NCBI GenBank assembly: GCA_017541025.1
Contig: JAFXZY010000001.1
Span: forward strand, 1-64,000
Origin: Bacteroidaceae bacterium
GTDB taxonomy: Bacteria; Bacteroidota; Bacteroidia; Bacteroidales; Bacteroidaceae
DNA length: 64,000 nucleotides
Direction: 5' to 3'
The translations under genes and the position numbers were made by a program. Shown here in pieces: positions 14,734-47,863 of the stretch. Within the stretch, counting starts at the first letter, position 1. Each line of letters begins with the position of its first letter. The notes beneath the pieces were generated by a model that did no database searches, had not been told where the DNA came from, and saw only the letters and a program-made list of their open reading frames with translations.

Positions 14734-15401
14734 TGGAGTGGTTATTGGACATCTTGCAGGAGATGGGAACCACGCTCAGGCTTCCCACATCCTTCGTTGT
14801 AATAGAGTTTATCGGAACCTTTGCCTTCGCTATTTCCGGTATCCGTTTGGCATCGGCCAAACAATTCGATGTTTTCGGAGCTTGGATTGTAGGTATGGCC
14901 ACGGCGATTGGAGGAGGAACCATACGCGATCTGATGTTAGGCGTGAACCCATTCTGGATGACCAACAGCATCTATTTTATCTGCTGTGGCTTGGCTGTCC
15001 TATGGGTGATGGCATACGGGAAATACCTGATTCGTCAGAAGAATACCCTGTTCATCTTCGATACCATCGGCTTGGCGTTGTTTAACGTCATTGGCATAGA
15101 AAAGACACTAAACCTGGGCTTCCCTTATTGGACAGCTATCACCATGGGAACCATTACAGGTGCTGCAGGTGGTGTAATCCGTGATGTCTTTATCAACGAG
15201 GTGCCGCTTATTTTCCGTAAGGAAATTTATGCTTTGGCTTGCGTGGCTGGTGGCTTGGTATATATGCTGTGTAACCGATTGGGAATGTCTGTCGAGGTGA
15301 ACGCTCTTCTGAGTAGCTTTACCGTTATAGTTATAAGGGTGTTTGCCGTCAAATATCATTGGATTCTGCCTAGACTAAAGGGCGAAGATGACTTAACTTA
15401 A
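14733..15401 (+). CDS. TRIC cation channel family protein (YadS/UPF0126)
   Basis: Six to seven membrane helices form two copies of the TRIC (UPF0126) repeat, each with the motif GGGTIRDLMLG or its second-repeat relative GAAGGVIRDVFINEVP. The repeat has FAISGIRLASAKQFDVFG before it. Bacterial TRIC proteins form monovalent cation channels in trimers. Length of 222 residues is slightly above the usual 205. Its start overlaps the stop of the PqqD-like gene (TGATG), so it is translationally coupled to the cassette, but a functional link is not proven. It precedes the T9SS plug gene by 15 bases. Confidence 0.9.
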   Translation: MEWLLDILQEMGTTLRLPTSFVVIEFIGTFAFAISGIRLASAKQFDVFGAWIVGMATAIGGGTIRDLMLGVNPFWMTNSIYFICCGLAVLWVMAYGKYLIRQKNTLFIFDTIGLALFNVIGIEKTLNLGFPYWTAITMGTITGAAGGVIRDVFINEVPLIFRKEIYALACVAGGLVYMLCNRLGMSVEVNALLSSFTVIVIRVFAVKYHWILPRLKGEDDLT

Positions 15402-17538: not shown

Positions 17539-17555
17539 TTGTTCAATGTTCAATG
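17539..17555. repeat. Heptamer repeat TTCAATG spanning the ampG-like start
   Basis: Tandem units TTGTTCA and ATGTTCA are followed by ATG of the next gene, so the start codon is the beginning of a third unit. The same heptamer occurs in the CotH-protein gene at 23377-23404. Confidence 0.6.
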
Positions 17556-24655: not shown

Positions 24656-25309
24656 ATGATGTTCGTACGTTCAGTAGATGTTATTGACCTGATACTAAAG
24701 GGCCTCATGATAGGAATAATAGCAAGTGCTCCGATGGGTCCGATTGGCATTCTGGTTGTGCAGCGTACCTTGAAAAAAGGACGCTGGTATGGTTTCGCAA
24801 CGGGTGTTGGAGCCGCATTGAGTGATATAGTCTATGCTGTTATCACAGGCTTGGGTATGAGTTTGGTGCTGGATTTTATTGAGAAACCTTCTACCTTGCT
24901 GTATCTGCGCCTCGGTGGCAGTATTATGCTATTCTTTTTTGGTCTATGGATGTTCAATTCCAGGCCACCTGCACCACATACACCAAGTGGTAAATTAGGC
25001 TCTTTCACACATAATGGCTTAACGGGTTTTCTGCTGACACTTAGCAATCCCTTGATTGTGTTCCTGTTTATTGCACTCTATGCCCGACTGAATTTTGTGG
25101 TGCCTAATCATTTGTGGGAGCAGACTTTGGGATATGCTGCAATTTTCTGCGGAGCCTTGTTGTGGTGGACATGTCTGACAGGTGCTTTGAAGAGTATGAA
25201 GGCTCGCTTACAAATGGAGACAATACAATTCTTTAACCGTCTCTTGGGTGCTTTGGTGATGGGCGTTTCTGGTATTATGTTTGTTTTGACGCTTATTGAT
25301 AGATTATGA
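24656..25309 (+). CDS. LysE-family amino acid exporter
   Basis: The 217-residue protein has six membrane helices and the LysE/RhtB pattern: an N-terminal helix with IASAPMGPIGILVVQRTLKKG, where GPxG is the typical signature, then a second helix with VGAALSDIVYA. LysE proteins export amino acids or similar solutes. The start at 24656 (MM) is uncertain; 24659 is equally likely. It overlaps the next gene by four bases. Substrate is not predictable from sequence. Confidence 0.85.
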   Translation: MMFVRSVDVIDLILKGLMIGIIASAPMGPIGILVVQRTLKKGRWYGFATGVGAALSDIVYAVITGLGMSLVLDFIEKPSTLLYLRLGGSIMLFFFGLWMFNSRPPAPHTPSGKLGSFTHNGLTGFLLTLSNPLIVFLFIALYARLNFVVPNHLWEQTLGYAAIFCGALLWWTCLTGALKSMKARLQMETIQFFNRLLGALVMGVSGIMFVLTLIDRL

Positions 25310-28136: not shown

Positions 28137-29927
28137 ATGAGAAAGAGAGGCAGGAATATACTGGCCTATGTGCTACGTTGGCGTCGCAGACACTTGAACG
28201 ACAATCAGTTTGTACTTGTTGTCAGTTTTTTTGTCGGCATCTTTACTGCTTGTGCGGGATTGCTGCTAAAGTGGCTGATTAGTCAGATTGAACACCTTCT
28301 GACTCAGAGTTTTGTGGAATCAACAGCCAACTGGCTATATCTTGTATATCCTGTTCTTGGTATCTGGCTTACCATGCTCTTTATCCGTTATGTGGTGCGT
28401 GATGATATCAGTCATGGAGTTACCAAGATTCTTTTTGCTCTTGCCAGAAAGCAGAGTCAGATAAAGCCTCATAACACATGGACGTCAGTTGTGGCCAGTG
28501 CCATAACCATCGGCTTTGGAGGTAGTGTGGGAGCAGAGGCCCCTATTGTGTTGACGGGTAGTGCCATAGGTAGTACCTTTGGCCAGATATTTAGGTTGAG
28601 TAGTAAGCAGATGATGTTGCTAGTAGGATGTGGTGCTGCAGGTGCTGTGGCAGGTATCTTTAAGGCGCCTATAGCGGGACTTGTATTTGTGCTGGAGGTA
28701 CTGATGATAGACCTTACCATGACCAGTCTTCTGCCGTTGCTGGTAAGTTGTGTCACAGCAGCAGCTTTAACTTTTGCAGTTTCAGGTATTAATCCTATTT
28801 TCGAGTTTCATCTTCAGGATGCTTTTACGGTAGAAAGACTTCCTGCATATCTGGCTTTAGGCGGAGTCTGCGGCTTGGTTGCACTGTACTTCACCAGAAC
28901 CATGAATATGCTGGAAGGCATTTTCAGAAAGCTCCAGGGACGGTATAAGAAGTTTGTTTTTGGAGCCATAATGCTGAGTTTGCTCATTTACCTGTTCCCC
29001 TCGCTTTATGGCGAAGGTTATGATTTAATTACGTTATTGCTGAATGGCACAGGAGAAGCTGATTGGAATACGGCTATGGACCGCTCTCTATTCTATGGCA
29101 GTAACCATCTGTTGGTTTACCTGTTCCTGATAATTATCTTTAAGGTATTTGCCTCTACAGCTACCAATGGAGGTGGTGGTTGTGGTGGCATCTTTGCTCC
29201 CAGTCTGTTCTTGGGGTGTATATGTGGTTTTATCTTCTGTCGTTTGTGGAATATATATGACTTGTTGGGTTTCCAGATTCCAGAACGTAACTTTGCCATG
29301 TTGGGAATGTGTGGCCTCATGAGTGGTGTTATGCATGCTCCACTTACAGGTATCTTCCTAATTGCTGAGCTGACGGGGGGCTATCAGCTTTTCATGCCAC
29401 TGATGGTGGTTTCGGTTATGGCATATATGACCATAAAGGCATTCGAACCTCATAGTATTTATACTATGCGTTTGGCTCAACGTGGTGAGTTGCTTACCCA
29501 TCATACAGACAAATCTATCCTCACCCTTATGAGTATGGATAGTGTGATTCAGCATTATGACCAAGTGCTGTATCCAGATATGACGTTGGGTGATGTGGCC
29601 GTTCAGGTTAGCAACAGCAAAAATCATGTTTTCCCTGTAGTAAATAAGCAGATGCAGTTTGTGGCGGCTGTGTATCTGGATGATATCCGTCATCTTATCT
29701 TCCGTTCTGAGTTATACAGACAGTTTACTGTTGCTCAGTTGATGAAGCAACCCGAGGGAATCCTTACGGTTAACGACTCTATGGATGTAGTGGTAGCAAC
29801 GTTCGACAGAACGCACGCCTGGACGCTGCCCGTTGTAGATGACGAGGGAGTATTCGTTGGTTTTATCCGTAAAAGTGCCGTCCTTACTGTTTACAGGCAG
29901 ATGTTAGCGGACCTTTCTACAGATTAA
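28137..29927 (+). CDS. ClC-type chloride channel/transporter with CBS domains
   Basis: The 596-residue protein has the ClC core of about ten membrane helices up to residue 430 and two CBS-like domains at the C terminus. The GSVGAEAPIV segment contains the gating glutamate, and GGGCGGIFAPSLFLG is the later conserved loop. A Glu in the gating position supports proton-coupled Cl- exchange or a gated channel. The C-terminal region VIQHYDQVLYPDMTLGDVAVQVSNSK-NHVFPVV fits CBS pair architecture. It is translated just after tsaC and its end overlaps the convergent comEC-like gene by 11 bases. Confidence 0.9.
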   Translation: MRKRGRNILAYVLRWRRRHLNDNQFVLVVSFFVGIFTACAGLLLKWLISQIEHLLTQSFVESTANWLYLVYPVLGIWLTMLFIRYVVRDDISHGVTKILFALARKQSQIKPHNTWTSVVASAITIGFGGSVGAEAPIVLTGSAIGSTFGQIFRLSSKQMMLLVGCGAAGAVAGIFKAPIAGLVFVLEVLMIDLTMTSLLPLLVSCVTAAALTFAVSGINPIFEFHLQDAFTVERLPAYLALGGVCGLVALYFTRTMNMLEGIFRKLQGRYKKFVFGAIMLSLLIYLFPSLYGEGYDLITLLLNGTGEADWNTAMDRSLFYGSNHLLVYLFLIIIFKVFASTATNGGGGCGGIFAPSLFLGCICGFIFCRLWNIYDLLGFQIPERNFAMLGMCGLMSGVMHAPLTGIFLIAELTGGYQLFMPLMVVSVMAYMTIKAFEPHSIYTMRLAQRGELLTHHTDKSILTLMSMDSVIQHYDQVLYPDMTLGDVAVQVSNSKNHVFPVVNKQMQFVAAVYLDDIRHLIFRSELYRQFTVAQLMKQPEGILTVNDSMDVVVATFDRTHAWTLPVVDDEGVFVGFIRKSAVLTVYRQMLADLSTD

Positions 29928-31912: not shown

Positions 31913-32503
31913 TTATCCTACCAGTGCAATATTATGCTTCAGTACCAGTTTCCTGAGATTAATGAGTGCATATCTCATACGGCCCAATGACGTATTGATG
32001 CTAACGCCTGTTTTCTCTGCAATCTCCTTAAAGCTCAGGTCTTCATAAAAGCGTAGAAGAACAACCTCACGTTGAACATCAGGCAAGTAGTCCAGCAACT
32101 TCCGTAACTGGTCGGCTTTTTGCTGTTCAATGATGTTTGTTTCTATTCCACCTTCACTCAGACGAATGTCGTTAAGAATGATAGGGGAGAATTTCTCTTG
32201 GGTAACCAGCATTCCAGATTCCGTTTCACGTGTAGAATCAATTATCAGATTGTGTGCTATGCGAATAAGCCAGGCACTGAATTTTCCTGTTGTCTGATAT
32301 TTATGACTACGTATGGCCATAATGGCACGAGTAAAGGTCTCTTGGAAGATATCATCAGCCACACCCTCTTCTTTTACAAGGAAGAGAATATAGGAATATA
32401 CATAACTTTGATGACGCTGTAACAACTCGTCAAAAGCATTATCATTACCATTCTCATACAATTCTACCAACTCATAGTCGGTACTTGTACTCAGATTCTT
32501 CAT
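31913..32503 (-). CDS. ECF-type RNA polymerase sigma factor
   Basis: The 196-residue protein has region 2 (AFDELLQRHQSYVYSYILFLV, DIFQETFTRAI) and region 4 (YLPDVQREVVLLRFYEDLSFKEIAEKTGVS) of group 4 sigma factors. The spacer between them is about 70 residues and contains no extra domain. The C terminus is short. No anti-sigma gene is next to it: upstream is fmt and downstream is the rpe leader. Its regulon cannot be named from the sequence. Confidence 0.92.
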   Translation of the reverse strand: MKNLSTSTDYELVELYENGNDNAFDELLQRHQSYVYSYILFLVKEEGVADDIFQETFTRAIMAIRSHKYQTTGKFSAWLIRIAHNLIIDSTRETESGMLVTQEKFSPIILNDIRLSEGGIETNIIEQQKADQLRKLLDYLPDVQREVVLLRFYEDLSFKEIAEKTGVSINTSLGRMRYALINLRKLVLKHNIALVG

Positions 32504-32637
32504 TACGCTTGTTTTAAATGTTTCGGTGTAATGTTTTCTCTATAGGCAATGATGTTTAAAATAGTTTTTTTACGAGTTTACTTGTGCAAAGGAAACACTT
32601 TTTAAGCAATCTTCCAAATTTTATGTCATTTTTTTTG

Positions 32638-33597
32638 TTATAATGTCCATCCTTCAGTATGTGCACCACGCAGAAAGTCCTCAATTTGCATACGTTTTTT
32701 GCCGGAAATCTGCACTTCTGTCAGATAAAGGTACCCATCGGGCAAAGCTACGCGCAGGTATGTTTTGCCGTCTGTCTGGAGGTTGGGGGCTTTAACATTT
32801 GTCAATGCTGTTTCTTTCCTAGTCTTGAAGATTTTCATCACCAATTCTTTCCCATCCTGAGTATGTAGTGTTGTCCAGGCAGCAGGGTAGGGGCTCAGAC
32901 CTCTTACAAAGTTGTATGCTTTCTGGGTGCTTGTCCACTTTATCTCACAGGTTTCCTTGAAGATTTTGGGTGCAGGGCGGAGCGGCTCATCTGTCATAAA
33001 CTGTTCCTGGTCAATAGCCTCAGCTTTACCTTCAGCTATCAGGTCTACAGTCTTCTGTACCAGGTCGGCCCCTTGCATCATCATGCGGTCGTGTATGACC
33101 TCCAGGCAATCCTCTTCTCCTATGGGGATACGTTCCTGGAGGATAATACGGCCTGTATCTATGTTCTCGTCCAGAAAGAATGTAGTGATACCCGTCTCCT
33201 TGTCACCATTGATGATAGCCCAGTTAATGGGAGCAGCACCTCGATATTGTGGTAGCAGAGCTGCATGCAGGTTAAAGGTACCTAAGCGAGGCATTCCCCA
33301 AACCACTTGAGGCAGCATCCTGAAAGCAACTACAATCTGTAGGTCAGCCTTAAGATTGTGCAACGCCGACAGGAATTCTTCGTCTTTCAGTTTCTCTGGT
33401 TGAAGCACGGGAATATTATGGGTGGCGGCATATTGTTTTACGGGGCTTGACTGCAGGACATCATGATGTCTTCCAATGGCTTTGTCAGGCATCGTAACAA
33501 CCCCCACCACATTATACCCGTTATCTACCAGTTTGGCTAATGAGGGGACAGCAAAGTCTGGTGTCCCCATAAATACGATTCTTATGTCTTTTTTCAT
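32638..33597 (-). CDS. fmt: Methionyl-tRNA formyltransferase
   Basis: The 319-residue protein has the formyltransferase core: RIVFMGTPDFAVPSLAK, RMLPQVVWGMPRLGTFNLHAALLPQYRGAAPINWAI with the catalytic Asn-His, TGITTFFLDENIDTG with the catalytic Asp, and a C-terminal OB domain. It formylates initiator Met-tRNA. Length is normal. It lies 47 bases downstream of the NRPS gene on the same strand and may be transcribed with it; the link is positional. Confidence 0.97.
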   Translation of the reverse strand: MKKDIRIVFMGTPDFAVPSLAKLVDNGYNVVGVVTMPDKAIGRHHDVLQSSPVKQYAATHNIPVLQPEKLKDEEFLSALHNLKADLQIVVAFRMLPQVVWGMPRLGTFNLHAALLPQYRGAAPINWAIINGDKETGITTFFLDENIDTGRIILQERIPIGEEDCLEVIHDRMMMQGADLVQKTVDLIAEGKAEAIDQEQFMTDEPLRPAPKIFKETCEIKWTSTQKAYNFVRGLSPYPAAWTTLHTQDGKELVMKIFKTRKETALTNVKAPNLQTDGKTYLRVALPDGYLYLTEVQISGKKRMQIEDFLRGAHTEGWTL

Positions 33598-33644
33598 CCA
33601 ATTCTTGGTTCTCGAACGCGAATAATAATTTCAAGATTTACGAG

Positions 33645-36600
33645 TTAATTATCAAAGAAGCCAAAGCCTGCAATCGTCTGGAAGAAGCGGTCAACATAGT
33701 CCCATGACGTTGGAGACCAGAAGAAGCCCTGACGGTAAAGCACCTGCATGGTGAAGTCGTTAACTTCCTGTACGGGAATAGCCTCTTGGCCGTGAGTGAC
33801 ATCACTATATGCCACCAGACTCTGTAGACGCTCTACCTTCTGCGGGTCGGACTTCACCTGATCCAGCCTCTTCCGGAACTCCTCCTGCTCAACCATGTAC
33901 ACGGGGGTACCTACAGAATCCAGTTCACGGAGTACGTCACCAAGGAACACACTGTGGTTGTTGTAAGGATGGAATATACAACACTCGCGTGGTGTGGTAG
34001 TCAGCAGACAAATGGCATGTGCCACCTCGTTGATGGGAGAGAACTCAACAGGGTCTTTGAAACTCTCATAAGGACAGCAACCAATTAAGCTGAAGGCGCG
34101 CATTCTGTTTGCGAAGCTGTTGGTTTGGAAGTTCACCTGGAACTCACCGTCTGTAGAACGGGCTGCGAGGTTGCCTACACGCATAACCTTTCCAACGAGT
34201 CCCTTGGTAGCAACGGCATCGAGAACGATACGCTCAGAAAGGAATTTCGAAAGGGTATACTGGTTGCCGAAATATTGGTTCATAAACAGATGTTGCTCGT
34301 CCAGGAAGGCTTTGTCTGCCGTCTCACCATGCGTAAGGAAACCGCCCACGCTAACCGTGGAAACCTGAATAAGCTTAGCTCCTGTCTTCAGGCAGAAATC
34401 TACGCAGCGTTGGGTACCTTCTACGTTGACTCGTTCGATGTCGCCGTCCTTGGAGAAGTGTTTCACGATGGCAGCACAATTGAATACGGTATCGTAGCTT
34501 GTTGCTGCGTCATCACAACAGATTGAACAGAGGTCGTCCGTCACATCACCCTTGATGACCCGAAGTCGTCCGTTTTCAAAGAACTCGCGATAGGCTGATG
34601 CAAAATAGTAGTACAGAAGCGTCTGCAAGCGCTGCTGGGCATCTGATTGAGTCTTGGCACGTACAAGGCAGGTAATCGTCTCAGCCTCGGAATTGATGAG
34701 CTCGTGGAGCAGGTGAATGCCCAGGTATCCTGTAGCTCCCGTCAGGAAAACATTCCCTAACGTGAGTGGAGTGCCTTTACGGAAAGCGTCTATTGTGCTA
34801 CCAGCCAGTACTTTTTCAATGGCGGTATAGTCGAAGTCCTTAACTTCAGACTCCAATCCACCACTCTCTTCAGAATTCTCACCTTTCAATAGAGCAGCAA
34901 TCTGTCGGGGTGTAGAATTGTCAAAGACATCTCCATATACCAGATGGTGCCCTATTTTATCTACATCTATAATCAAACGTGTTACGACGAGTGAAGTACC
35001 ACCCAGTTCAAAGAAGTCATCGGTGGCTCCTACGCGTTCTACCTGTAGGATATCAGCGAAGATGTCGCAGAGCTGTTTCTCCAGATCATTTGCCGGTGCC
35101 ACATATTCTGTTGTTACGGAAAGCACAGGCTCAGGCAGTGCCTTCACGTCGGTCTTGCCACTGGGCGAGGTGGGCATTTTGTCGAGTTGCAGGTAGGCGG
35201 TAGGAACCATGTATTGGGTCAGGCTCTTGCTTATCTCAACTTTCAGTTCATCGATGTCCACTGGATGATTGGCAGTGAAGTAGGCACAGAGGTGTTCCTT
35301 GCCGTTAATCTTGCGAATCATCACAACCACTTGACCGATACCCTCCTGTTGGGCTATCACGCTTTCTATCTCACCCAGTTCAATGCGTAGTCCACGCAGT
35401 TTCACCTGATTGTCTGTACGTCCTAAGATACTAACGTAGCCGCGTTCGTCCCAACGGGCATAGTCGCCAGAACGGTACAATGTTTTGTCAATGGGGTCGT
35501 CAGGGAAGAACGGGTTGGGGATGAAAGCTTCGCGTGTCTTCTCTGGCAGGTTGTTATAACCTAAACCTACCTGTGCACCACCTATCAGCAGTTCACCTGT
35601 AACCCCTAAGGGAACGCGGTTCATGTCGGCATCCACTATGTATTCGGTAACGTTCACCAGTGGACGACCGATGGTGATGTGTTCGTCGTTCGTCACCTCG
35701 TGACTGTTGCTCTCCACCGTTATCTCGGTGGGGCCGTAACTGTTGAAGAGATGGGCTTTGGTGGTCTTTTGCAGTTCATACAGTTGGCTGTCAGAGAATT
35801 TCTCACCACCCAGTTCTATGATGCGGCAACCTGCCAGTGCCTGACGGAAGATGTCTGATTCGTATAGCTGCATCAGTCGTGAGGGCGTGCCTTGGAACAT
35901 GCCCACGTTGTTCTCCAACATAAACTCTGCCAAACGGATAGGATCATTGGTAATCTCATCGTTGGCTAATGCCAAGGTAAGACCATTGTACAGTGGAATA
36001 CCGATTTCCTCGACAGAGGCATCGAAGGATATGGTGGCCAGTCCGAGAATACACTTCACCTCCTGCGTCACCGTCCAGTTGCGGAAGTTGAGCGGATGGG
36101 CAAAGAGTTCGTTGCAGATGCCTTTGTGGTGAAGCATCACACCCTTTGGACGACCCGTAGAACCTGACGTATAAATAATGTACGCGAGGTCGCTGCCTTC
36201 CTGTGGAATACCGGGATTAGCCGTGTTCTGGCATTGCAACAAATCTACTACGTTCAGGGCTTTCTCCAATACCTTGAGACTTCCCTCACCTGCCTGTGTC
36301 TTCAGATTTGCAAGGTTTTCTTCATCTGTAACGATATAGGTAGCCTCACTGTCCTCAAGAATCAGCTTAATGCGGTCTGCAGGATAATGCGGATCGCAAG
36401 GAATATATGCTGCACCAGCCTTCATGATACCGAACATGGTAAAGATGAGGCGGCTGGTACGCGGTAGCAACATAGCCACACGATCGCCGCGCTTTACACC
36501 GTGCTCTATGAGCGCATTGGCCACACGGTTCATCTCTGCATTTAATTGGCTGAAGGTAAAGGTACCATCGCATGCCACCAGGGCCTTTGCGTCAGGCTTC

Positions 36601-39600
36601 TGCTCGGCATTTGCCTCAACGGCTTGATGGAACAGGCGGGTAGGCACTTCTGCTGTGCCAGCCATACGGAACGAATTAATCAAACGTTCCTGCTCCTCAC
36701 TGAGCATCGACACCTTGAGAAGACTGCCTTTGGGTGCTTCCATGAAATGCTCCACAACGCTTATGTAGGACTCTGCCAGCCCTGCTATCGTCTTCTCACT
36801 ATAGAAGGCATCGTCATACTCAAGGCAGACCACAGGCTGCCCGTTCTGTTCTATAATGATGATATCAAGTTTCTGTTTTGGTACATCTACTTCAATCGAC
36901 TTGACATCTATATTCTTGCCACCAACGGTATGTTTTTCAAACACTCCCAACTGATAAGTGTAGGTTGTGTTAGCCGAGAAATCATAATCGGCAGCAATAC
37001 GTGCGAAGGGGTATTGCTCGTGTCGCATCGTCTGTTCGAAATCCTGGCTTGTACGGCGGATGAACTCCTCTACGGTCTGATCTGTAATGTGTCCCGCCAA
37101 TGGAAGGGTATTGACAAACATACCTGTTGTGTCAGCCAGACGTAAGTCGGAACGGCCATTGCTGATTGTGGAGATATATACATGACGATTGTTTGTGTAT
37201 CGCGATAGTGTGTAGTAAGCTGCGGCAAGCATCAGGCTGGCAGGCGTTACATTCAGCTTCCTGCAGAACTGCTCCACTTTGTTGTAATCGAAGGTTCTTG
37301 CTACCTGGGCAACATGACCGTGAGGCTCACTGGGCGAGAAATCGTCAGTTATCTCTGTACACCCCTCGCACTCCTTCATTACTTCAGCAAAGTAGGCCTT
37401 GGCCTCCTGATACTCTTGACCATTCTCCGCTTGGCGCTGCTCCTGCGAGAACTGCAGATAGCCTATCTGTTCGCGATCTATGGTACCTCCGTCGAGGAGA
37501 GTGCATAACTGACGTAGCATCAGGTCTGTCGAAGCTCCGTCAGAGATGAGATGGTGAACGTCCATCAGAATGACAACGCGCTTTTCCGTTTGCACGATTT
37601 CCATGCGGTAGAGCGGACCACGCTCTAAGTGGAAAGGCAGTGTAAATTGATGTTGATAGTCGGCCAGTTCCTCTTCTGTCATCTCGTTACGGGTTACCAG
37701 CGGTTCCTGGTCAGGATCGTACACCTGGACAACGTCGTCACCCTGTGTCTCGAAATGGATGTTGAAGGCAGGATGTGCCTGGATAATCTGTATCAGGGTT
37801 TCTTCCACCTTGTCAGCATCAACGCCAGAGGGAAGTGTGATGGCAATGGGAAGATTATAGGTGACATCAAGCGGATGCTTCATGCACTCGTAATATACAC
37901 CCAACTGGGCGTAGTTGAGCGGAGCAGAGGTAAGATTAAGGTGAGTTTCCGTCTCTCCCTTCTTACTTCTTCCACCATCCATCAGACTTTTGATAATCTC
38001 GTTCTCGATACTCTGAATAGTCACTTCTTTCGCCATCGACTTAGCGTCAAGCTCTATGCCGTAGCGCTTATTGACCTCTACCGCCAGTTTCATGGCCGTA
38101 ATGGATGTAAGGCCAGTGTAGCCCAGCACCGTTGTGATGCCAAAGTCGCTGTTGCCCACTAGCTTCGAAATAATCTCGTGGAGCTCCTTCTCCAGCACAT
38201 TCATTGGGGCCTGTGCTGTTTGTTGCGACTGAACTGCAGCAGACCGAACAGGCTTGGGAAGTGCCCGCTTGTCAACTTTCTGGTTTTGGTTCATCGGGAT
38301 GGCATCAATCTGCATCGTCACCTCAGGCACCATATATGGTGGCTTTTTTTCATGAATGAATTTGTTTAGTGCTTCAATGTCGACAGGAGAATCGCTCACC
38401 ACGTAGGCGGCGATGTACTTACCAGCTCCTTCTCCTTCCGTATCGAAAGCATGAACTGTGGCGTCCTTGATACCTGGGAAGTCACGTATCACGGCCTCCA
38501 CTTCTTTCAGTTCAACACGAAAACCGCGAATCTTCACCATACCGTCACGACGGCCTACGAATACCAGTTCACCGTCTTTACGCTGCCTGACGATGTCGCC
38601 CGTCTTGAAAATCCGGCCGTATGTGTCGTCTTCCATTATTTTCTGGGCAGACAACTCAGGAGCATTCAGATAGCCCCGGCATACCTGAGGTCCCCTCACC
38701 CATAGCTCACCCTCTTCGCCAGGTGCAGCAGGTTGACCATTATCGGCCATAATAACCAATGTTGTTTCACCCAGAGGGGTGCCTAGTATAGACTGCTCTT
38801 CACGCTCTATCAGATTATGTCCGGCAATACTCGTACACTCAGAACTACCGTAGAAGTTAACCATTCGGATATGCTTCGGTGGGGTTAAAGGCGGTAGTGC
38901 CTCACCACCGCAACTAAGCACCTCCAGCGTGGTGTCTTCATCCATACTGCCGGCAAACTGATAAGCCATCATGGTAGTCATGAAAATATGTGTGATACTT
39001 TCCTTACGGATGTACGCTTTCAGTCGTCCCATATCAAAGCGCTCGGCATTGTCCAGAATGTGCAGGGTGGCACCTAAAGAAAGGGCTCCCCATGTCTCAA
39101 CAACAGTGGGTACAAAACCGAAGCTGGCGTAGTTAGCTACACGGCTACCGACCTTCATGCCCAGGAACTTTCCAAATGGAACAGAAGATGAGGCTACGTT
39201 GCGCTGTTCCAGCATAACGCCCTTGGGTTGTCCTGTGGTTCCTGAAGTATAAACAAGCATCACCAGACCTGTTGGGTCAGGGTCTTTCAACGGCTCGGTG
39301 ACAGGCGGCAACTGGCTGATATCCTTAGTCAGAAGGAGTGGCGTAGTAACGTCGCCTAACAGCGGCAGCAACTCCTCGTCGGCAATCAGCAACTTGGCGT
39401 GGGCATCCTGAATCATGTATCTCAGACGCTCCTGGGGGTATGTGGGGTCCAGGGGCTGATAAGCGCAGCCAGCTTTCAATACGCCGAGCGGTGCAATGGG
39501 CATCCACTCGCAACGTGGAATCAAAATGGCAACGACATCCTCTTTGCCCAGCCCTTTCGAGGCTACAAATGCTGCTATGCGGTCGCTGATTTCATCCACT

Positions 39601-39710
39601 TCGGCATAAGTGTACCGCTTATCTTTATAAACCACGGCGACATTTTGTGGAGTCGCCTTCGCCTGCTGACGGAACAGCGCGGCAATCGTCTGTGTCTGAG
39701 TCATATTCAT
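33645..39710 (-). CDS. Two-module nonribosomal peptide synthetase with terminal reductase (A-T-C-A-T-R)
   Basis: From the chosen start at 39710 the protein has 2021 residues. Order: A1 (about 10-500, A3 VYTSGTTGQPKGVML, A10 NQKVDKRALP); T1 with Ser in GLTSI (about 532); C domain with HHLISDG (about 717); A2 (about 1050-1545, YTSGSTGRPKGVML, SFDASVEE, NSYGPTE, PSGKTDVKALP); T2 with Ser in FFELGGTSL (about 1572); NAD(P)H-type thioester reductase (about 1655 to end, TGATGYLG, YTLSK). The product is predicted as a dipeptide released as an aldehyde or alcohol. A1 lacks the FDxS Asp235 (reads SFGFVPT) and the GPTE motif (NFYGSSE), so its substrate may be unusual. The start at 39764 lies upstream of the promoter and is rejected; 39704 is also possible. 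Confidence 0.95.
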   Translation of the reverse strand: MNMTQTQTIAALFRQQAKATPQNVAVVYKDKRYTYAEVDEISDRIAAFVASKGLGKEDVVAILIPRCEWMPIAPLGVLKAGCAYQPLDPTYPQERLRYMIQDAHAKLLIADEELLPLLGDVTTPLLLTKDISQLPPVTEPLKDPDPTGLVMLVYTSGTTGQPKGVMLEQRNVASSSVPFGKFLGMKVGSRVANYASFGFVPTVVETWGALSLGATLHILDNAERFDMGRLKAYIRKESITHIFMTTMMAYQFAGSMDEDTTLEVLSCGGEALPPLTPPKHIRMVNFYGSSECTSIAGHNLIEREEQSILGTPLGETTLVIMADNGQPAAPGEEGELWVRGPQVCRGYLNAPELSAQKIMEDDTYGRIFKTGDIVRQRKDGELVFVGRRDGMVKIRGFRVELKEVEAVIRDFPGIKDATVHAFDTEGEGAGKYIAAYVVSDSPVDIEALNKFIHEKKPPYMVPEVTMQIDAIPMNQNQKVDKRALPKPVRSAAVQSQQTAQAPMNVLEKELHEIISKLVGNSDFGITTVLGYTGLTSITAMKLAVEVNKRYGIELDAKSMAKEVTIQSIENEIIKSLMDGGRSKKGETETHLNLTSAPLNYAQLGVYYECMKHPLDVTYNLPIAITLPSGVDADKVEETLIQIIQAHPAFNIHFETQGDDVVQVYDPDQEPLVTRNEMTEEELADYQHQFTLPFHLERGPLYRMEIVQTEKRVVILMDVHHLISDGASTDLMLRQLCTLLDGGTIDREQIGYLQFSQEQRQAENGQEYQEAKAYFAEVMKECEGCTEITDDFSPSEPHGHVAQVARTFDYNKVEQFCRKLNVTPASLMLAAAYYTLSRYTNNRHVYISTISNGRSDLRLADTTGMFVNTLPLAGHITDQTVEEFIRRTSQDFEQTMRHEQYPFARIAADYDFSANTTYTYQLGVFEKHTVGGKNIDVKSIEVDVPKQKLDIIIIEQNGQPVVCLEYDDAFYSEKTIAGLAESYISVVEHFMEAPKGSLLKVSMLSEEQERLINSFRMAGTAEVPTRLFHQAVEANAEQKPDAKALVACDGTFTFSQLNAEMNRVANALIEHGVKRGDRVAMLLPRTSRLIFTMFGIMKAGAAYIPCDPHYPADRIKLILEDSEATYIVTDEENLANLKTQAGEGSLKVLEKALNVVDLLQCQNTANPGIPQEGSDLAYIIYTSGSTGRPKGVMLHHKGICNELFAHPLNFRNWTVTQEVKCILGLATISFDASVEEIGIPLYNGLTLALANDEITNDPIRLAEFMLENNVGMFQGTPSRLMQLYESDIFRQALAGCRIIELGGEKFSDSQLYELQKTTKAHLFNSYGPTEITVESNSHEVTNDEHITIGRPLVNVTEYIVDADMNRVPLGVTGELLIGGAQVGLGYNNLPEKTREAFIPNPFFPDDPIDKTLYRSGDYARWDERGYVSILGRTDNQVKLRGLRIELGEIESVIAQQEGIGQVVVMIRKINGKEHLCAYFTANHPVDIDELKVEISKSLTQYMVPTAYLQLDKMPTSPSGKTDVKALPEPVLSVTTEYVAPANDLEKQLCDIFADILQVERVGATDDFFELGGTSLVVTRLIIDVDKIGHHLVYGDVFDNSTPRQIAALLKGENSEESGGLESEVKDFDYTAIEKVLAGSTIDAFRKGTPLTLGNVFLTGATGYLGIHLLHELINSEAETITCLVRAKTQSDAQQRLQTLLYYYFASAYREFFENGRLRVIKGDVTDDLCSICCDDAATSYDTVFNCAAIVKHFSKDGDIERVNVEGTQRCVDFCLKTGAKLIQVSTVSVGGFLTHGETADKAFLDEQHLFMNQYFGNQYTLSKFLSERIVLDAVATKGLVGKVMRVGNLAARSTDGEFQVNFQTNSFANRMRAFSLIGCCPYESFKDPVEFSPINEVAHAICLLTTTPRECCIFHPYNNHSVFLGDVLRELDSVGTPVYMVEQEEFRKRLDQVKSDPQKVERLQSLVAYSDVTHGQEAIPVQEVNDFTMQVLYRQGFFWSPTSWDYVDRFFQTIAGFGFFDN

Positions 39711-39733
39711 GGTGTTAATATAAAATTTATTGG

Positions 39734-39765
39734 CAAAGATACTAGTAAGTGAGGAATTCTCCAAA
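39734..39765 (-). promoter_or_regulatory. Promoter of the NRPS gene, TTTG-N20-TATCTTTG
   Basis: On the minus strand TTTG lies at 39762-39765 and TATCTTTG at 39734-39741 with a 20-base spacer. The start at 39710 lies about 24 bases downstream, which excludes the longer start at 39764. Confidence 0.8.
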
Positions 39766-39902
39766 CATTTTCGAGAATTTTTGAAGTACAGCCGATCTTC
39801 AAGGCTGTCTACACAGTCTCAAAGATATGACTAAAACCCAATTCTCGCCTTTGACCTTGGTATCTCAATAGGGCAGATATCCTCTAGTAAAAAAGCATTA
39901 AA

Positions 39903-40985
39903 TTAATCTTTTTCCAGCAGGATGTTAAGCATTTGGTGGTCTAATTTGTGGCCATGGAAATACTTGTAATCTACATCGCTGCGGTGACTGTCTAATATGC
40001 CGAAGGAGCCTCGCAGGTTCCACAGAGCCCATCCCAGTCCCATCTGATGGAAGACACTCAGGTTATCCTGGAGCCACTTGAGGGCTACTTTATGTGGTGT
40101 CTGGTTGTGGCATCCGAACTCACCAATAAAGGCTCTTCCGCCCTGATGGAATAAGGGTGCCCAACTGCGCTGCTGCATGTCCAGTAACCATTGACGGTCA
40201 TAGTGTCTGCCGTCAGCATCCAGAGGCCACATTAGCTTTTCCTTAGGGAATGGCATGGGACCGTTGCCATAAACCCACGAGGCACCGTAATGCGAAACAA
40301 GCATGGGCTGATAGCCGCGTCCGCACTGGATGATTTGGGGAAGGTCTTCTATGGTCAGCAGGGGACGTCCGCCCCATTCCAGTCCGTCGATGAGAATAAG
40401 ACGGTGTGGAGAGTGACTGCGTATCTCGCTTACCAGGCAACGCACTACTCGCTCATAGTCCTCGTCCTTAATCTTCGCTACCTCGTTCAGCAGATTGAAA
40501 CTCAGGTGCTTGCTCTTTATCCCTTTGTATCGCTGAGCCAGAACGCCCCATTGGTAGGCACAGCCGTCTAATGCCTCTTGGTCACGGAAGATATCTTGTG
40601 GTTCGGCTGGTGGGTTAACGCAATAGCCTGGGGCACGATGTAGGTTCAGACAGACATGAATGTGGTATTTCTGTCCCCATTTCACGGCATTGTCTAAATC
40701 CTCCAGTATACGTTCGTCTATCTCATAGTATTCGCCAGGCTTGCTCCAGTTCCAGTAGCTAAGCGGCAATCGCACGAAATTGAAGCCCCAGTCAGTTATC
40801 CATTGGAATTCCTCTTCACGGAAGGGTTCCGGGTGGTCTGCAGTGAAGTAATTCAGCAGATTGAATCCGCGCCACCGCTCAGGATGAACGTTTCTGACAC
40901 GGGCCAAAGCATCGGATGCCAGACCAGGCATCATAAGGATACTGGCTGTCGCACCCAAGGTTAGAAGAAAATCTCGTCTTTGCAT
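39903..40985 (-). CDS. GH5-family glycoside hydrolase, Tat- or Sec-exported
   Basis: The 360-residue protein begins MQRRDFLLTLGATASILMM, a twin-arginine-like signal peptide with RRDF. The catalytic domain is GH5-like: RGFNLLNYF, FVRLPLSYWNW, LHRAPGYCVN, FNLLNEVAKI with the acid/base Glu and IGEFGCHNQ with the nucleophile Glu. It should be a periplasmic or surface endo-glycanase (cellulase/mannanase-type). No SusC/D genes are adjacent, so it is not in a clear polysaccharide utilisation locus. It is transcribed toward the NRPS gene and has a weak -7 box at 41008-41015. Confidence 0.87.
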   Translation of the reverse strand: MQRRDFLLTLGATASILMMPGLASDALARVRNVHPERWRGFNLLNYFTADHPEPFREEEFQWITDWGFNFVRLPLSYWNWSKPGEYYEIDERILEDLDNAVKWGQKYHIHVCLNLHRAPGYCVNPPAEPQDIFRDQEALDGCAYQWGVLAQRYKGIKSKHLSFNLLNEVAKIKDEDYERVVRCLVSEIRSHSPHRLILIDGLEWGGRPLLTIEDLPQIIQCGRGYQPMLVSHYGASWVYGNGPMPFPKEKLMWPLDADGRHYDRQWLLDMQQRSWAPLFHQGGRAFIGEFGCHNQTPHKVALKWLQDNLSVFHQMGLGWALWNLRGSFGILDSHRSDVDYKYFHGHKLDHQMLNILLEKD

Positions 40986-41007
40986 GATAACTTATTTTTT
41001 TTCAGTG

Positions 41008-41015
41008 CAAATATA
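41008..41015 (-). promoter_or_regulatory. -7-like box upstream of GH5 gene
   Basis: TATATTTG on the minus strand lies 23 bases upstream of the start at 40985. The -33 is not clear, so the call is tentative. Confidence 0.4.
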
Positions 41016-41126
41016 TATATATGTGTTTTTCTCAATAACTGCCAAATAGTGTTTTATTTGTCAAATAATAAGAATGATTCGAAATATGTCTTCAGAAGCA
41101 ACCCAAAAACAGGGACTTAACTCGAT

Positions 41127-41166
41127 ACATGCATTGAGTTAACTAATTACATGTTTTGAGTTAACT
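41127..41166. repeat. 22-bp tandem repeat with AGTTAACT palindromes
   Basis: Two copies of ACATG(C/T)(A/T)TTGAGTTAACT start at 41127 and 41149 (period 22), after a partial third TTAACTC near 41118. The rest of the 40986-41289 gap has no supported ORF. Confidence 0.6.
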
Positions 41167-41289
41167 CACCGCATTTAGTGCGTTTATATCATCTATGATC
41201 AACGGTCAAAAATACGATATTCCTGTGCATAATTCACAATGTGGCGTAGAAGTAGGCTATCCCGCACTTTTGTTTGGTGTGCAACGGCT

Positions 41290-42417
41290 TTATTTCTCTA
41301 TCACCATTTCAAACTGGCAACAGGGGTCTGTTCGGTTGGCTAAGTGTTTGGTGATTGGCGAACAGCCCAATAGCACGCTGTAGGTGCTGGCCTTTATGGT
41401 CTTGCCGTCGGGTAGGAATTCCAGCAGACGTAGCCATCCATCGCCACCGCTTCCACCAGCACCGCCAGAGAGGTACTGCACGTTGAACATCATCTGGTGG
41501 ACACTCAGGCCTGAAGCATTCTTATCACATCGGTAAGCCATATTGCTCAAGAAGTCGTAATCGCTGCCAGGCTCTTTTCCGTCATCGGAAGCAGGGTGCC
41601 CTGTGTGGCCGCAAATGGCCAGACGGATGTTCTTGCAGGGATAGAGCAGTTTATCCCAAATCTGTTGCCCCCAGTTAGGGTCTGAAACCTTGTAGTTGCT
41701 ATTGGTGTATTTGGGCGTTCCACCACCTTTAATCTCCTTGAGCAGGTTGTGAGTCAGGAAGATAACCGTATGGTCCTTATAGCGGTTGCTTTCGCAAAGT
41801 TCACGAGCCCAACAGAGGACCGTATCTCTGGGTGCCCATTCGGTACCTATTATCAGTAGCTTGCCCCAATGTTGCGTTTCGAACTCCCATGCTGCATTTT
41901 CCAGCGATGCTTGTCCCATACGGTTGGGTAGAGTTGCCACCAAGTGTTCGGCCGTTTTGCTATTGCGTTCAGGTGTGCAATATTCGGGGTAATGTGTAAA
42001 GTCCTCGTCGCCGCGCATGTAGCCATATTCGTGGTTGCCACCTGCAATAATATATGGTACACGATTATCCAAGCGTTCCAGACAATGACTGACCCACTGC
42101 CACTGCTGGCGGCTGGTCTGGTTGTGGTTCTTTTTGCCTTTCACTACTAGATTGTCATTTGTCTGAACCACATCGCCTGTAAAGAGTACGGCTTGTAAAT
42201 TCAGTTTTTCGGCATTGCCCGCCATCCATGCCGTGCAGAGTTCCAGGACGGGTTGGTTCTGGTCGAACCGTGTATAACTTTGTGCATCGCCAAAGACAAT
42301 CATCGAGAAAGATTCCTGATTGCTCATCTGCACCTCTGCCCTTTGTGCCCTGATTGCGAACGTAATACATAGCGTAAGTAATAGAACGAAGAATTGTTTC
42401 TTTAACCTATAGTCCAT
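41290..42417 (-). CDS. Calcineurin-like metallophosphoesterase, secreted
   Basis: The 375-residue protein has a signal peptide (FFVLLLTLCITFAIRAQ) and the metallophosphoesterase motifs: MIVFGDAQ, LFTGDVVQ, AGGNHEYG, a long loop and later FLTHN and AICGHTGHP. These bind two metals. Targets may include phosphoesters of nucleotides or lipids; sequence does not tell. A -7 box TATATTTG lies at 42456-42463 on this strand. The neighbouring GH5 gene follows downstream after 304 bases. Confidence 0.84.
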   Translation of the reverse strand: MDYRLKKQFFVLLLTLCITFAIRAQRAEVQMSNQESFSMIVFGDAQSYTRFDQNQPVLELCTAWMAGNAEKLNLQAVLFTGDVVQTNDNLVVKGKKNHNQTSRQQWQWVSHCLERLDNRVPYIIAGGNHEYGYMRGDEDFTHYPEYCTPERNSKTAEHLVATLPNRMGQASLENAAWEFETQHWGKLLIIGTEWAPRDTVLCWARELCESNRYKDHTVIFLTHNLLKEIKGGGTPKYTNSNYKVSDPNWGQQIWDKLLYPCKNIRLAICGHTGHPASDDGKEPGSDYDFLSNMAYRCDKNASGLSVHQMMFNVQYLSGGAGGSGGDGWLRLLEFLPDGKTIKASTYSVLLGCSPITKHLANRTDPCCQFEMVIEK

Positions 42418-43748: not shown

Positions 43749-44444
43749 ATGAAAAAGCTTCTTTATACAGCCCTAAGTTTAATGATAGCCTTTGCTGGTT
43801 TTATCTCTTGTTCTGATGATCAGACTTACGCTGAGCAGAAAGACAAAGAACGTAAGGCAGTAGATGCATTCTTAAAGCGTGATGTGACAATTGTTGGCCC
43901 ATCTGGTGATACCATCTGCAACGTTGGCGTTATTAATGTAATTACCGAGCAGGAGTTTATAAATCAGGATTCTACCACTAATCTTGAGAATAACGAGTAT
44001 GTACTCTTTGCCAATAATGGTATATATATGCAGATTGTCAGGAGGGGTGTTGGTGAGAAAATTTCCAAAGGGCAGACGCGCCAGGTAGCCTGCCGATTTG
44101 TCGAATATAATATATTAGGTGACAGCTTGCAGTTACGTAATGATGTCAGCTATTGGCATACAAATCCAGACATCATTGCTGTAACCAACACATCTGGCAC
44201 ATTCTCTGGCAAATTTGTTATAGGCGATATGGCTGGTGCCATGTATCAGACTTACGGCGAAGAGAAGGTTCTGGAGGGTTGGTTAGCTCCTTTTCCTTAT
44301 ATCCGCGTTGGAAGGCAAACAACAGCAGATGGTGAAATAGCCAAAGTAAGACTGATTGTGCCCCATACTGCAGGTCAGAGCAATGCCGCTACTAATGTCT
44401 ATCCCTGTTTTTACGAAATCCTTTATCAGGAATGTCGTGACTAA
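43749..44444 (+). CDS. DUF4827 lipoprotein
   Basis: The 231-residue protein has a type II signal peptide (LMIAFAGFISC with Cys at about 22), then a charged linker and a beta-rich domain with LENNEYVLFANNGIYMQIV and RRGVGEKISKGQTRQV, which resembles the FKBP-like DUF4827 family. No catalytic residues are identifiable. It overlaps HemW by eight bases if the GTG start at 44437 is used. Confidence 0.75.
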   Translation: MKKLLYTALSLMIAFAGFISCSDDQTYAEQKDKERKAVDAFLKRDVTIVGPSGDTICNVGVINVITEQEFINQDSTTNLENNEYVLFANNGIYMQIVRRGVGEKISKGQTRQVACRFVEYNILGDSLQLRNDVSYWHTNPDIIAVTNTSGTFSGKFVIGDMAGAMYQTYGEEKVLEGWLAPFPYIRVGRQTTADGEIAKVRLIVPHTAGQSNAATNVYPCFYEILYQECRD

Positions 44445-45558
44445 GGTAGGCGGCGTATACATTCATGTACCTTTTTGTAAGAAACGTTGCATTTATTGTG
44501 ACTTCTATTCTACAACCAGTGGTTTTGAGTGGAAGCGTTCTTATATCTCCGCCCTTAAGCGTGAGATGCGCTTGAGGCGTTCCGAAATAGACTTCTCGCG
44601 CGTACCTTCTTTATATATAGGAGGCGGAACCCCCAGTCAGTTACCTTCAGATTTACTGATAGAGTTGTTTCAGACTGCAAAGGACAACTTTACGCTTTCT
44701 GAAGGCGCAGAGGTTACCATTGAGGTTAATCCTGATGATGTAACGCCCAGCTTGATTGATGCTTTGCGCCAAACACCTGTGAACCGTATAAGTATGGGTG
44801 TGCAGACCTTCAGGGATGAAATGCTGCGATTCCTAAACCGTAGGCATACCTCCGAACAGGCTTTGCAAGCTGTGCAACTATTTAGGGATGCAGGTTATGG
44901 CAATATCAGCCTTGACTTGATATATGGTCTGCCCAGTCAGACATTTGAAGCTTGGACTTGTGATGTTCAGCAATTGCTGAAACTTAGTGTTCCCCATCTG
45001 AGTGCCTACGCGCTGTCATACGAGAATGGTACTCCCTTATATAAGATGCTTCAGGGAGGCGAAGTCTCAGAGGCTTCCGATGAACTGTCGTGGAGGATGT
45101 ATGAATATCTAATGGATGAAACAAAAGCCTCAGGATATGAACATTATGAAATTTCCAACTTTGCTAAACCTGGTATGCGTGCCAGGCATAACAGCAGTTA
45201 TTGGGATGGCTCCCCATATCTTGGCTTGGGGCCGGGAGCACATTCTTATGATGGCGATAATGTCCGTAGGTCGAACAATACGTCGTTAGAGGAATATGTA
45301 TCTGCAATAGCGGATGTTCCTCATCAGTTGGAGGTTCTTTCTCGCGAGGAACAATATGATGAGCTGATTATGACACGTTTGCGTACAGCTTCAGGACTTT
45401 ATCTGCGTGCTCTTACTCCTGAGCAAGAATCCTATTGCCTGCAGATGGCGGAACAGCATTTATGCTGGGGAAATCTGATAAGAGAAGGCGATATCCTGCG
45501 TCTTTCAAGGAAAGGTATTTTTATTTCCAACAGTGTTATCAGTGACCTGATGTGTTAG
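44437..45558 (+). CDS. hemW: HemW-type radical SAM protein
   Basis: The start is placed at GTG 44437, giving 373 residues, the usual HemW size; the frame extends further upstream (44356) but that part would overlap the DUF4827 gene. The radical SAM cluster CKKRCIYCDF has the CX3CX2C pattern, followed by YIGGGTPSQL, SMGVQTFRDEMLRFLNR, DLIYGLPSQT and NSSYWDGSPYLGLGPGAHS. HemW is a haem chaperone related to HemN. It is co-transcribed with the lipoprotein. Confidence 0.88.
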   Translation: MTKVGGVYIHVPFCKKRCIYCDFYSTTSGFEWKRSYISALKREMRLRRSEIDFSRVPSLYIGGGTPSQLPSDLLIELFQTAKDNFTLSEGAEVTIEVNPDDVTPSLIDALRQTPVNRISMGVQTFRDEMLRFLNRRHTSEQALQAVQLFRDAGYGNISLDLIYGLPSQTFEAWTCDVQQLLKLSVPHLSAYALSYENGTPLYKMLQGGEVSEASDELSWRMYEYLMDETKASGYEHYEISNFAKPGMRARHNSSYWDGSPYLGLGPGAHSYDGDNVRRSNNTSLEEYVSAIADVPHQLEVLSREEQYDELIMTRLRTASGLYLRALTPEQESYCLQMAEQHLCWGNLIREGDILRLSRKGIFISNSVISDLMC

Positions 45559-45703
45559 CGTCTTTCTTCAATTCTCTTTTTCCTGTTCCCCCTTTTATTG
45601 AAAAATATGTTTTTTAACATGCAAACTTTCTATTGTCAGTTCAAATATTATTTCTAATTTTAACCCCTGAAAATTAAAACTAATAGCATTAATAACAAAA
45701 AAT

Positions 45704-47863
45704 ATGAAGGTTTACAAAACAAATGAGATTAAAAACATTGCTCTGATGGGCAATGATGGTGCGGGTAAGACAACCCTTACTGAGGCCTTGCTTTATGAGG
45801 CAGGCATTATCAAAAGAAGAGGTCGTATTACCCAGAAGAATACCGTTAGTGATTATTTCCCAGTAGAGCAAGAATACGGTTATTCCGTTTTCTCTACTGT
45901 TTTCCATACAGAGTGGAATGGCAAGAAGCTGAATTTTATTGATTGCCCTGGTAGTGATGACTTTGTCGGTTCTGCTATTACAGCATTGAACGTTACGGAT
46001 ACAACTGTTATCCTTATTAAAGGAGGCGCAGGTGTAGAGGTTGGTACCCAGAACCATTTCCGTTATACTGAAAAGTTAGGCAAGCCCGTTATATTCCTCG
46101 TTAATCAGCTGGATGACGAGAATTGCGATTATGATAATCTTCTGGAGCAACTGAAAACCATCTATGGCCCAAAGGTAGTTCCTGTTCAGTATCCTATTGC
46201 AACTGGTCCGGACTTCAATGCACTGATTGACGTGCTGCTTATGAAGAAGTACTCATGGGGTCCAGAAGGTGGCGCTCCTACTATCGAGGATGTTCCTGCT
46301 GACCAGATGGATAAGGCTATGGAACTGCACAAGGCATTGATAGAAGCTGCTGCCGAGCATGATGAGAGCCTGATGGAGAAGTTCTTTGAAAGCGAAGACC
46401 TAACTGAGGATGAAATGCGCGAAGGTATCCGCAAGGGTTTGGCTTCACGTGGTATGTTCCCGGTATTCTGCGTAGATGCCGTTAAGGATATGGGTGTTCG
46501 TCGTTTGATGGAATTTTTAGGTAATGTAGTTCCTTTCGTAGACGAGATGCCTAAGGTCTTCAATACTCGTGGTGAAGAAATTACTCCTGATCCTGCAGGT
46601 CCTACCAGCCTGTTCTTCTTCAAGACTGCTGTTGAACCCCATATTGGTGAGGTTCAGTATTTCAAGGTGATGAGCGGTTCTGTAAAGGAAGGTGATGACC
46701 TTACAAATGCTGACCGTGGCAGTAAGGAGCGTATGGCACAGCTCTTCGTTTGTGCTGGTGCCAACCGTATTAAGGTGGAAGAACTGGTAGCCGGTGATAT
46801 AGGTTGTACCGTTAAGCTTAAGGACGTTAAGACGGGCAATACTCTGAATGGAAAGGATTGCGACAACCGTTTCAACTTTATCAAGTATCCTAATTCTAAG
46901 TATAGTCGTGCTATTCGTGCAGTCAACGAGAGCGAGACTGAGAAGATGATGAATGCCCTCCAGAAGATGCGCGAGGAAGATCCCACATGGGTTGTCGAGC
47001 AGAGTAAGGAGTTGCGACAGATTCTTGTGCATGGTCAAGGCGAATTCCACCTGCGCACCCTCAAATGGCGTATGGAGAACAACGAGAAGATTCAGATTGT
47101 TTTCGACGAGCCCAAGATTCCCTATCGTGAGACTATTACCAAGGCAGCCCGTGCCGACTATCGTCACAAGAAGCAATCTGGTGGTGCAGGTCAGTTTGGT
47201 GAGGTTCATCTCATTGTAGAGCCTTATTATGAAGGCATGCCGGATCCGGATGTTTATACATTCGGCGGTCAGGAATATCGTATCAATGTTAAGGGCACTG
47301 AGATCATCGACTTGGAATGGGGCGGTAAGCTCGTGTTTATAAACAGTATTGTTGGTGGTTCTATCGATGCACGTTTTATGCCTGCTATCCTTAAGGGTGT
47401 TATGCAGCGTATGGAGCAGGGACCTTTGACAGGATGCTATGCCCGTGACGTTCGCGTAATTGTATATGATGGCAAGATGCATCCGGTAGATAGCAATGAA
47501 CTTTCATTCATGTTGGCAGGACGTCAGGCCTTTGCTTTGGCCTTCAAGGAGGCAGGTCCCAAGATTCTTGAGCCAATCAATGATGTGGAAGTCTTTGTTC
47601 CCAGTGATAAGATGGGTGATGTGATGAGTGACTTACAGGGACGCCGTGCTATGATTACGGGTATGACCAGTGAAAATGGTTATGAGAAACTCACAGCTAA
47701 GGCTCCTCAGAAGGAAATGTCTAACTATAGTACAGCACTCAGTAGCCTTACAGGCGGACGTGCCAGCTTCATCACCAAGTTCGCTTCTTACGAACTGGTT
47801 CCTGGCGATGTTCAGTCTAAGTTGATTGCTGCTTATCAAGCAACCTTATCAGAAGAGAAATAG
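45704..47863 (+). CDS. EF-G2, translation-factor paralogue with altered GTPase motifs
   Basis: The 719-residue protein has the EF-G domain order. The G-domain motifs differ from normal EF-G: P-loop GNDGAGKTT, switch II DCPGSDDF in place of DTPGHVDF so that the catalytic His is Ser, and NQLD in place of NKMD. Domain IV and V are intact (QSGGAGQFGEVHLIVEP, LQGRRAMITGM). This pattern fits Bacteroides EF-G2, which has been reported to act in translation without GTP hydrolysis and to support gut colonisation. The 45559-45703 gap before it is AT-rich and has no clear -7 box. A terminator follows at 47911-47940. Confidence 0.9.
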   Translation: MKVYKTNEIKNIALMGNDGAGKTTLTEALLYEAGIIKRRGRITQKNTVSDYFPVEQEYGYSVFSTVFHTEWNGKKLNFIDCPGSDDFVGSAITALNVTDTTVILIKGGAGVEVGTQNHFRYTEKLGKPVIFLVNQLDDENCDYDNLLEQLKTIYGPKVVPVQYPIATGPDFNALIDVLLMKKYSWGPEGGAPTIEDVPADQMDKAMELHKALIEAAAEHDESLMEKFFESEDLTEDEMREGIRKGLASRGMFPVFCVDAVKDMGVRRLMEFLGNVVPFVDEMPKVFNTRGEEITPDPAGPTSLFFFKTAVEPHIGEVQYFKVMSGSVKEGDDLTNADRGSKERMAQLFVCAGANRIKVEELVAGDIGCTVKLKDVKTGNTLNGKDCDNRFNFIKYPNSKYSRAIRAVNESETEKMMNALQKMREEDPTWVVEQSKELRQILVHGQGEFHLRTLKWRMENNEKIQIVFDEPKIPYRETITKAARADYRHKKQSGGAGQFGEVHLIVEPYYEGMPDPDVYTFGGQEYRINVKGTEIIDLEWGGKLVFINSIVGGSIDARFMPAILKGVMQRMEQGPLTGCYARDVRVIVYDGKMHPVDSNELSFMLAGRQAFALAFKEAGPKILEPINDVEVFVPSDKMGDVMSDLQGRRAMITGMTSENGYEKLTAKAPQKEMSNYSTALSSLTGGRASFITKFASYELVPGDVQSKLIAAYQATLSEEK

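Follow-up and report, generated by a model that had tools for sequence, protein, structure and literature searches.

The window analysed here, a stretch of 64,000 nucleotides from a Bacteroidaceae bacterium, carries the gene of a nonribosomal peptide synthetase (NRPS). The open reading frame 33645-39764 (-) holds the complete gene. Translation likely starts at ATG 39710, because the earlier TTG 39764 falls within a promoter match of the type TTTG-20-TATCTTTG, which we take to be the Bacteroidota consensus. This consensus occurs 9 times in the window, where chance would give 0.91 matches, and a sigma-70 promoter scan of 32400-41300 showed no excess (12 matches vs 11.6 expected). A match to the consensus promoter of the original prediction is present. 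A GH5 enzyme and a metallophosphoesterase are encoded upstream of the NRPS gene; fmt, a sigma-70-family factor, rpe and a competence gene follow downstream. The features are listed in Table 1.

Table 1. Features of the NRPS gene and transporter or channel genes of the window
Feature	Position	Strand	Remarks
NRPS gene, A-T-C-A-T-R	33645..39710	-	2021 aa from ATG 39710
Bacteroidota-type promoter match	39734..39765	-	TTTG-20-TATCTTTG
A1 domain	38250..39701	-	code VPVFLCFSIK, without Asp235
A1 core segment	38511..39410	-	42-45% identity to L025, L026, L003 and L005; flanks 68-77%
Val codon at the Asp235 position	39111..39113	-	aa 218 of the open reading frame
T1 carrier domain	37965..38207	-	Ser in GLTS
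C domain	36675..37931	-	HHLISDG
A2 domain	35130..36635	-	code DAEQILSVEK, Asp235 present
T2 carrier domain	34875..35087	-	Ser in GGTS
R domain (NAD_binding_4)	33651..34817	-	GATGYLG and YxxxK
Gly_transporter gene	14733-15401		not adjacent to NRPS
MFS gene	17553-18800		not adjacent to NRPS
LysE gene	24656-25309		not adjacent to NRPS
CLC channel gene	28137-29927		not adjacent to NRPS

Pfam detected two AMP-binding stretches, two PP-binding domains, one Condensation domain and one NAD_binding_4 domain in the protein (E 2.9e-14 to 1.5e-154), and a scan with the window's own domains fixed the order A-T-C-A-T-R. The predicted two-module NRPS with terminal reductase was confirmed in this way: A, T, C and R domains are in order, and their catalytic motifs are present. 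The R domain carries GATGYLG, an ST site and YTLSK. All inspected motifs are kept in the window protein and in six A-T-C-A-T-R relatives (loci L022, L023, L024, L027, L028 and L029); in all seven the T1 motif reads GLTS instead of the usual GGxS. The carrier and reductase residues, where the original prediction had suggested looking for inactivity, are intact in T1, T2 and R. The T2-R part (33648-35120) matches PDB 6VTJ, presumably an archaeal NRPS, with E 1.4e-89 and the AusA reductase 4F6L with E 4e-49, and the motifs together with these matches support a putative R domain of the aldehyde-releasing type, as had been proposed. By E-value, T2-R is nearer to 6VTJ than to the AusA reductase.

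Comparison of the NRPS gene with L023, L027 and L028 gives a dN/dS ratio of 0.08 in each case; with L022, to which it is 99% identical, the ratio is 0.03. No single domain exceeds 0.12. Low ratios and the presence of the motifs indicate that the enzyme is maintained. Judged by its sequence, the NRPS is under purifying selection and is a real enzyme with predicted activity.

Apart from the NRPS, 36 proteins of the window, a subset of its open reading frames, were screened with Pfam. The window had been said to hold neither a transporter nor a phosphopantetheinyl transferase (PPTase) gene, which stands for the PPTase and fails for transporters, since four transporter or channel genes are present, none of them next to the NRPS gene. 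The suggested search for a PPTase elsewhere was successful: the assembly (completeness 84%) has a single PF01648 match, a protein of 205 aa encoded on another contig, C80, and PF22624, a second PPTase-related model, has no match in the whole assembly. The LysE-type exporter gene lies about 8 kb from the NRPS gene, with no sign of a connection.

The gene stands alone, as described. Among 12 loci compared (three of them repeats of others), no gene constantly accompanies the NRPS. L022 has its downstream genes in common with the window and a different upstream gene; there a nucleoside-hydrolase-like gene (L022:999-2117, below the Pfam cut-off) takes the place of the GH5 gene (39903-40985) of the window. 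In L023 and L025 genes for an EF-G-like protein and a HemN-like radical SAM protein adjoin the NRPS gene; their window relatives (78% and 45% identity) are at 44356-47863, about 4.6 kb off the NRPS gene and in different orientation. A MATE gene follows downstream in L025 (by Pfam) and L026, the two being 78% identical; no MATE gene was found beside the NRPS gene of the window.

Related NRPS genes occur in 60 of 139 genus genomes at 1e-150, and four of the 139 carry a full-length gene of the window type, at 67-100% identity, namely the window genome, G318, G370 and G309. A wider family sample gave matches in 61 of 301 genomes at 1e-60. Among the 20 loci fetched from this sample the intact ones besides the window are mostly C-A-T-C-A-T-R; the best-matching relatives of this order are about 52-55% identical to the window protein over full length. 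The host is a Prevotella-like bacterium, probably of the ruminant forestomach, a habitat suggested by a 99% identical gene in a goat reticulum record. Of eight fetched Bacteroidota records two give goat and yak reticulum as their source, four bear RUG names, presumably from a rumen genome series, and two are without source. NRPS clusters are common in rumen Bacteroidaceae, with 934 reported in the part of PMC8241843 available.

The first A domain departs from the usual pattern. Codes of A domains were read by motif-anchored alignment, with the column order given in the available text of PMC11355689, according to which Asp235 binds the alpha-amino group of the substrate. Aligned with LgrA, the A1 stretch SFGFVPTVVE stands opposite SFSFDGSALD, so that Val faces Asp, whereas A2 has Asp. 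A1 also has YGSSE where YGPTE is expected; it keeps SGTTGQPKG and the A10 Lys motif, and its binding pocket residues are mostly hydrophobic. The window, L022, L023, L027 and L028 have identical A1 codes, and L024 and L029 share VPHILVIGMK. An aliphatic residue at position 235 is typical of keto-acid A domains in the sections available of PMC10949194, and A1 has one. The KR domain usual in depsipeptide modules is absent: with a threshold of E 0.001, Pfam detected no KR family in the stretch from A1 to T1, and in this respect module 1 is unlike typical keto-acid modules. Without a KR domain a keto acid, if loaded, would remain unreduced, and a simple hydrophobic acid could equally be the predicted substrate.

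The position of Asp235 was surveyed in A domains collected by similarity to the window protein. A first set (n=128) had Asp in 120, Val in 7 and Ile in 1. Addition of ten further regions and removal of copies and of domains below 430 aa gave 125, and merging of four duplicates from twice-fetched regions left 121 distinct domains, with unchanged odds. The count omits, besides domains below 430 aa, the loci L001, L002, L017, L032-L034, L050 and L058-L087, which are copies, short slices or stretches superseded by longer ones. All 103 A domains preceded by a C domain keep Asp235, as do two whose N-terminal side is ambiguous (L021, L030). Fourteen A domains open an NRPS, nine with Val or Ile and five with Asp (L025, L026, L090, L091 and L092, all trimodular). 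The association of Asp235 with position has a Fisher value of 2e-10, or 0.004 if the nine are counted as two, both values being descriptive for a set of related rows. An A domain preceded by a C domain has to provide an amine, and Asp is present throughout this group; only openers are without it, as expected of a loading module for an amine-less acid. Since the five trimodular relatives start with an A domain and keep Asp235, the absence of a starter C domain does not force the change. Asp235 is also missing from two pieces (A or A-T, in L092 and L093) that are truncated where the fetched stretch ends; they sit near NRPS genes and are possibly acyl-AMP ligases feeding starter units.

From these codes the A1 module probably loads an acid without an amine, which would make the product an N-acyl amino aldehyde that does not close to a pyrazinone. 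The A1-T1 module would adenylate a hydrophobic carboxylic acid lacking an alpha-amine (an alpha-keto acid or a simple aliphatic or aryl-alkyl acid), the C domain would couple the acyl group to one amino acid supplied by A2-T2, and the R domain would free the N-acyl amino acid as aldehyde through NADPH reduction. For chemical reasons the ring of a dihydropyrazinone can close only with an N-terminal amine; the A1 unit would have none, so that a pyrazinone is not expected and the product would stay an aldehyde. Ring closure of the AusA type to a dihydropyrazinone is described in the available parts of PMC12153313 and PMC8210680. The R domain could in principle reduce through to the alcohol. A persistent aldehyde would fit an inhibitor of serine or cysteine proteases, a possible role that we infer along with the substrate classes and the aldehyde product. 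An N-acyl tail is named in the part of PMC8210680 available as a feature possibly stabilizing gut dipeptide aldehydes.

The amino acid supplied by A2 is the weakest guess. Glu occupies positions 239 and 331 of A2, a feature reminiscent of Lys/Orn codes, and a basic residue (Lys, Orn or Arg) is tentatively suggested. In the literature searched, where subscription journals are mostly not covered, no paper was found on Prevotella NRPS aldehyde protease inhibitors or on Bacteroidetes gut peptide aldehyde NRPS; a search on a Lys code likewise returned none.

The dipeptide aldehyde closing to a pyrazinone, as originally predicted, presumes that both A domains load amino acids and that the free-amine dipeptide aldehyde closes to dihydropyrazinone and pyrazinone. 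The aureusimine synthetase AusA is similar in architecture: in the available text of PMC12153313 it is also a one-protein A-T-C-A-T-R enzyme with reductive release that needs a separate PPTase, and its model NF047350 is the top NCBIfam match of the window protein. The 964 bits of this match are far below the equivalog cut-off of 2500. The A1 domain of AusA loads Val, and its product closes to pyrazinones; the window A1, its substrate predicted from the code, has Val in place of the Asp235 of pyrazinone-type enzymes, and the window differs further in having no PPTase gene beside the NRPS gene. This product is therefore unlikely, and the N-acyl amino aldehyde is favoured.

Some beta-amino-acid A domains are without Asp235, so the rule on this residue has exceptions; A1 might accordingly load a beta-amino acid or another amine-bearing acid, and an aldehyde with a displaced free amine could form a larger imine ring. 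Of the nine residues that precede Lys in the code (VPVFLCFSI) most are hydrophobic and none could serve an amine as acidic partner, and the same applies to VPHILVIGM and IPPILVVGL, which makes this alternative rather improbable. A second exception would be an A domain with Asp235 that PMC10949194, in the part available, proposes to activate a keto acid. Degeneration of A1, leaving module 1 dead or loaded in trans, would explain the missing canonical residue and YGPTE motif; yet the A1 core has dN/dS of 0.07-0.11 against L023, L027 and L028, the closest members, five in number (window, L022, L023, L027, L028), have one and the same code, and SGTTGQPKG and the A10 Lys are retained, so that decay is very improbable. 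If A1 instead loads an amine-less acid, the predicted product is no longer a pyrazinone; it becomes a capped aldehyde that persists and in this form would be expected to act as a protease inhibitor, and domain order by itself would be a poor predictor of the product.

Aryl- and keto-acid loading A domains with R-terminated partners are known from the tilivalline/PBD type and from MxcG, where an amine-less acid is joined to an amino acid and released by an R domain. The window NRPS differs from these in being a single protein with Val at 235, and it scores 658 bits with the MxcG model, below the cut-off of 2300. In gut dipeptide-aldehyde NRPSs the N-acyl tail would derive from a starter C domain; unlike these, the window NRPS would have its cap loaded by the first A domain itself. 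Products of such commensal systems are released as aldehydes (Guo et al. 2017, as reported in the available part of PMC8210680).

The architecture is already known and the predicted product class changes; the interesting part is the exchange of front modules. The last A code, DAEQILSVEK, is shared by all nine members found, including the trimodular L025 and L026, and their fronts vary between two predicted amine-less A types and two amino-acid modules. Identity of the window protein to modules 2-3 of L025 is 76% ahead of the A1 core, drops to 42% at aa 119-418 and rises again to 77% in Asub-T1, 81% in the C domain and 89-97% from A2 to T2. The C-A-T-C-A-T-R relative L003 gives a similar A1 dip (73-45-73), which is smaller or absent in Asp-type pairs (L003/L005 82-82-91; L025/L003 83-64-79). 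L024 and L029 diverge from the window across the entire A1 and also across R. The window A1 core shows the pattern of an Acore exchange; natural Acore swaps in the available text of PMC8097286 likewise show divergence limited to Acore with the Asub-T part retained. The difference is that here an amino-acid module would have been converted by the exchange to one that loads amine-less acids.

A relative provides the clearest case. Within assembly G370 the proteins of the dimodular L024/L033 and the trimodular L089 share 84-100% identity at aa 151-500 of A1. Their DNA is 87-100% identical over aa 160-499 (third positions 70-100%), with a drop to 47-57% beginning at aa 500. On the left the boundary is less distinct, with 58-60% at aa 120-159 and 83-85% at aa 80-119. 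A near-identical, putatively amine-less A1 segment with a sharp right edge in two NRPS genes is a sign of copying between genes.

In trees of 36 rows the seven predicted amine-less A1 cores form a single clade (100/100), which the flanks do not (topologies compared by eye). AU tests with 29 rows did not reject the alternative topologies (p 0.361 and 0.164), and a single core origin by transfer is therefore not claimed from the trees. An outside donor of the window A1 core was not found at 1e-45 among 399 family genomes (best non-self match 47% identical) or among 395 phylum genomes (the window itself the sole match), so that fast local divergence is a possible origin for the window gene.

Possibly, these synthetases form an aldehyde family with constant warhead and variable cap, in which the last A code is fixed, recombination swaps the fronts, including a mobile amine-less A segment, and a lineage would make free peptide aldehydes or stable, capped aldehyde inhibitors by turns. 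If A1 does load an amine-less acid, such natural A-domain exchanges, by which amino-acid modules become acyl-loading ones, would be useful templates for NRPS engineering. The dimodular gene of L023 (7361-13495) and the trimodular gene of L025 (4941-14132) occupy one chromosomal site, where one outer neighbour on each side is 98% identical, the HemN-like upstream gene is 77% identical and the adjoining downstream gene differs.
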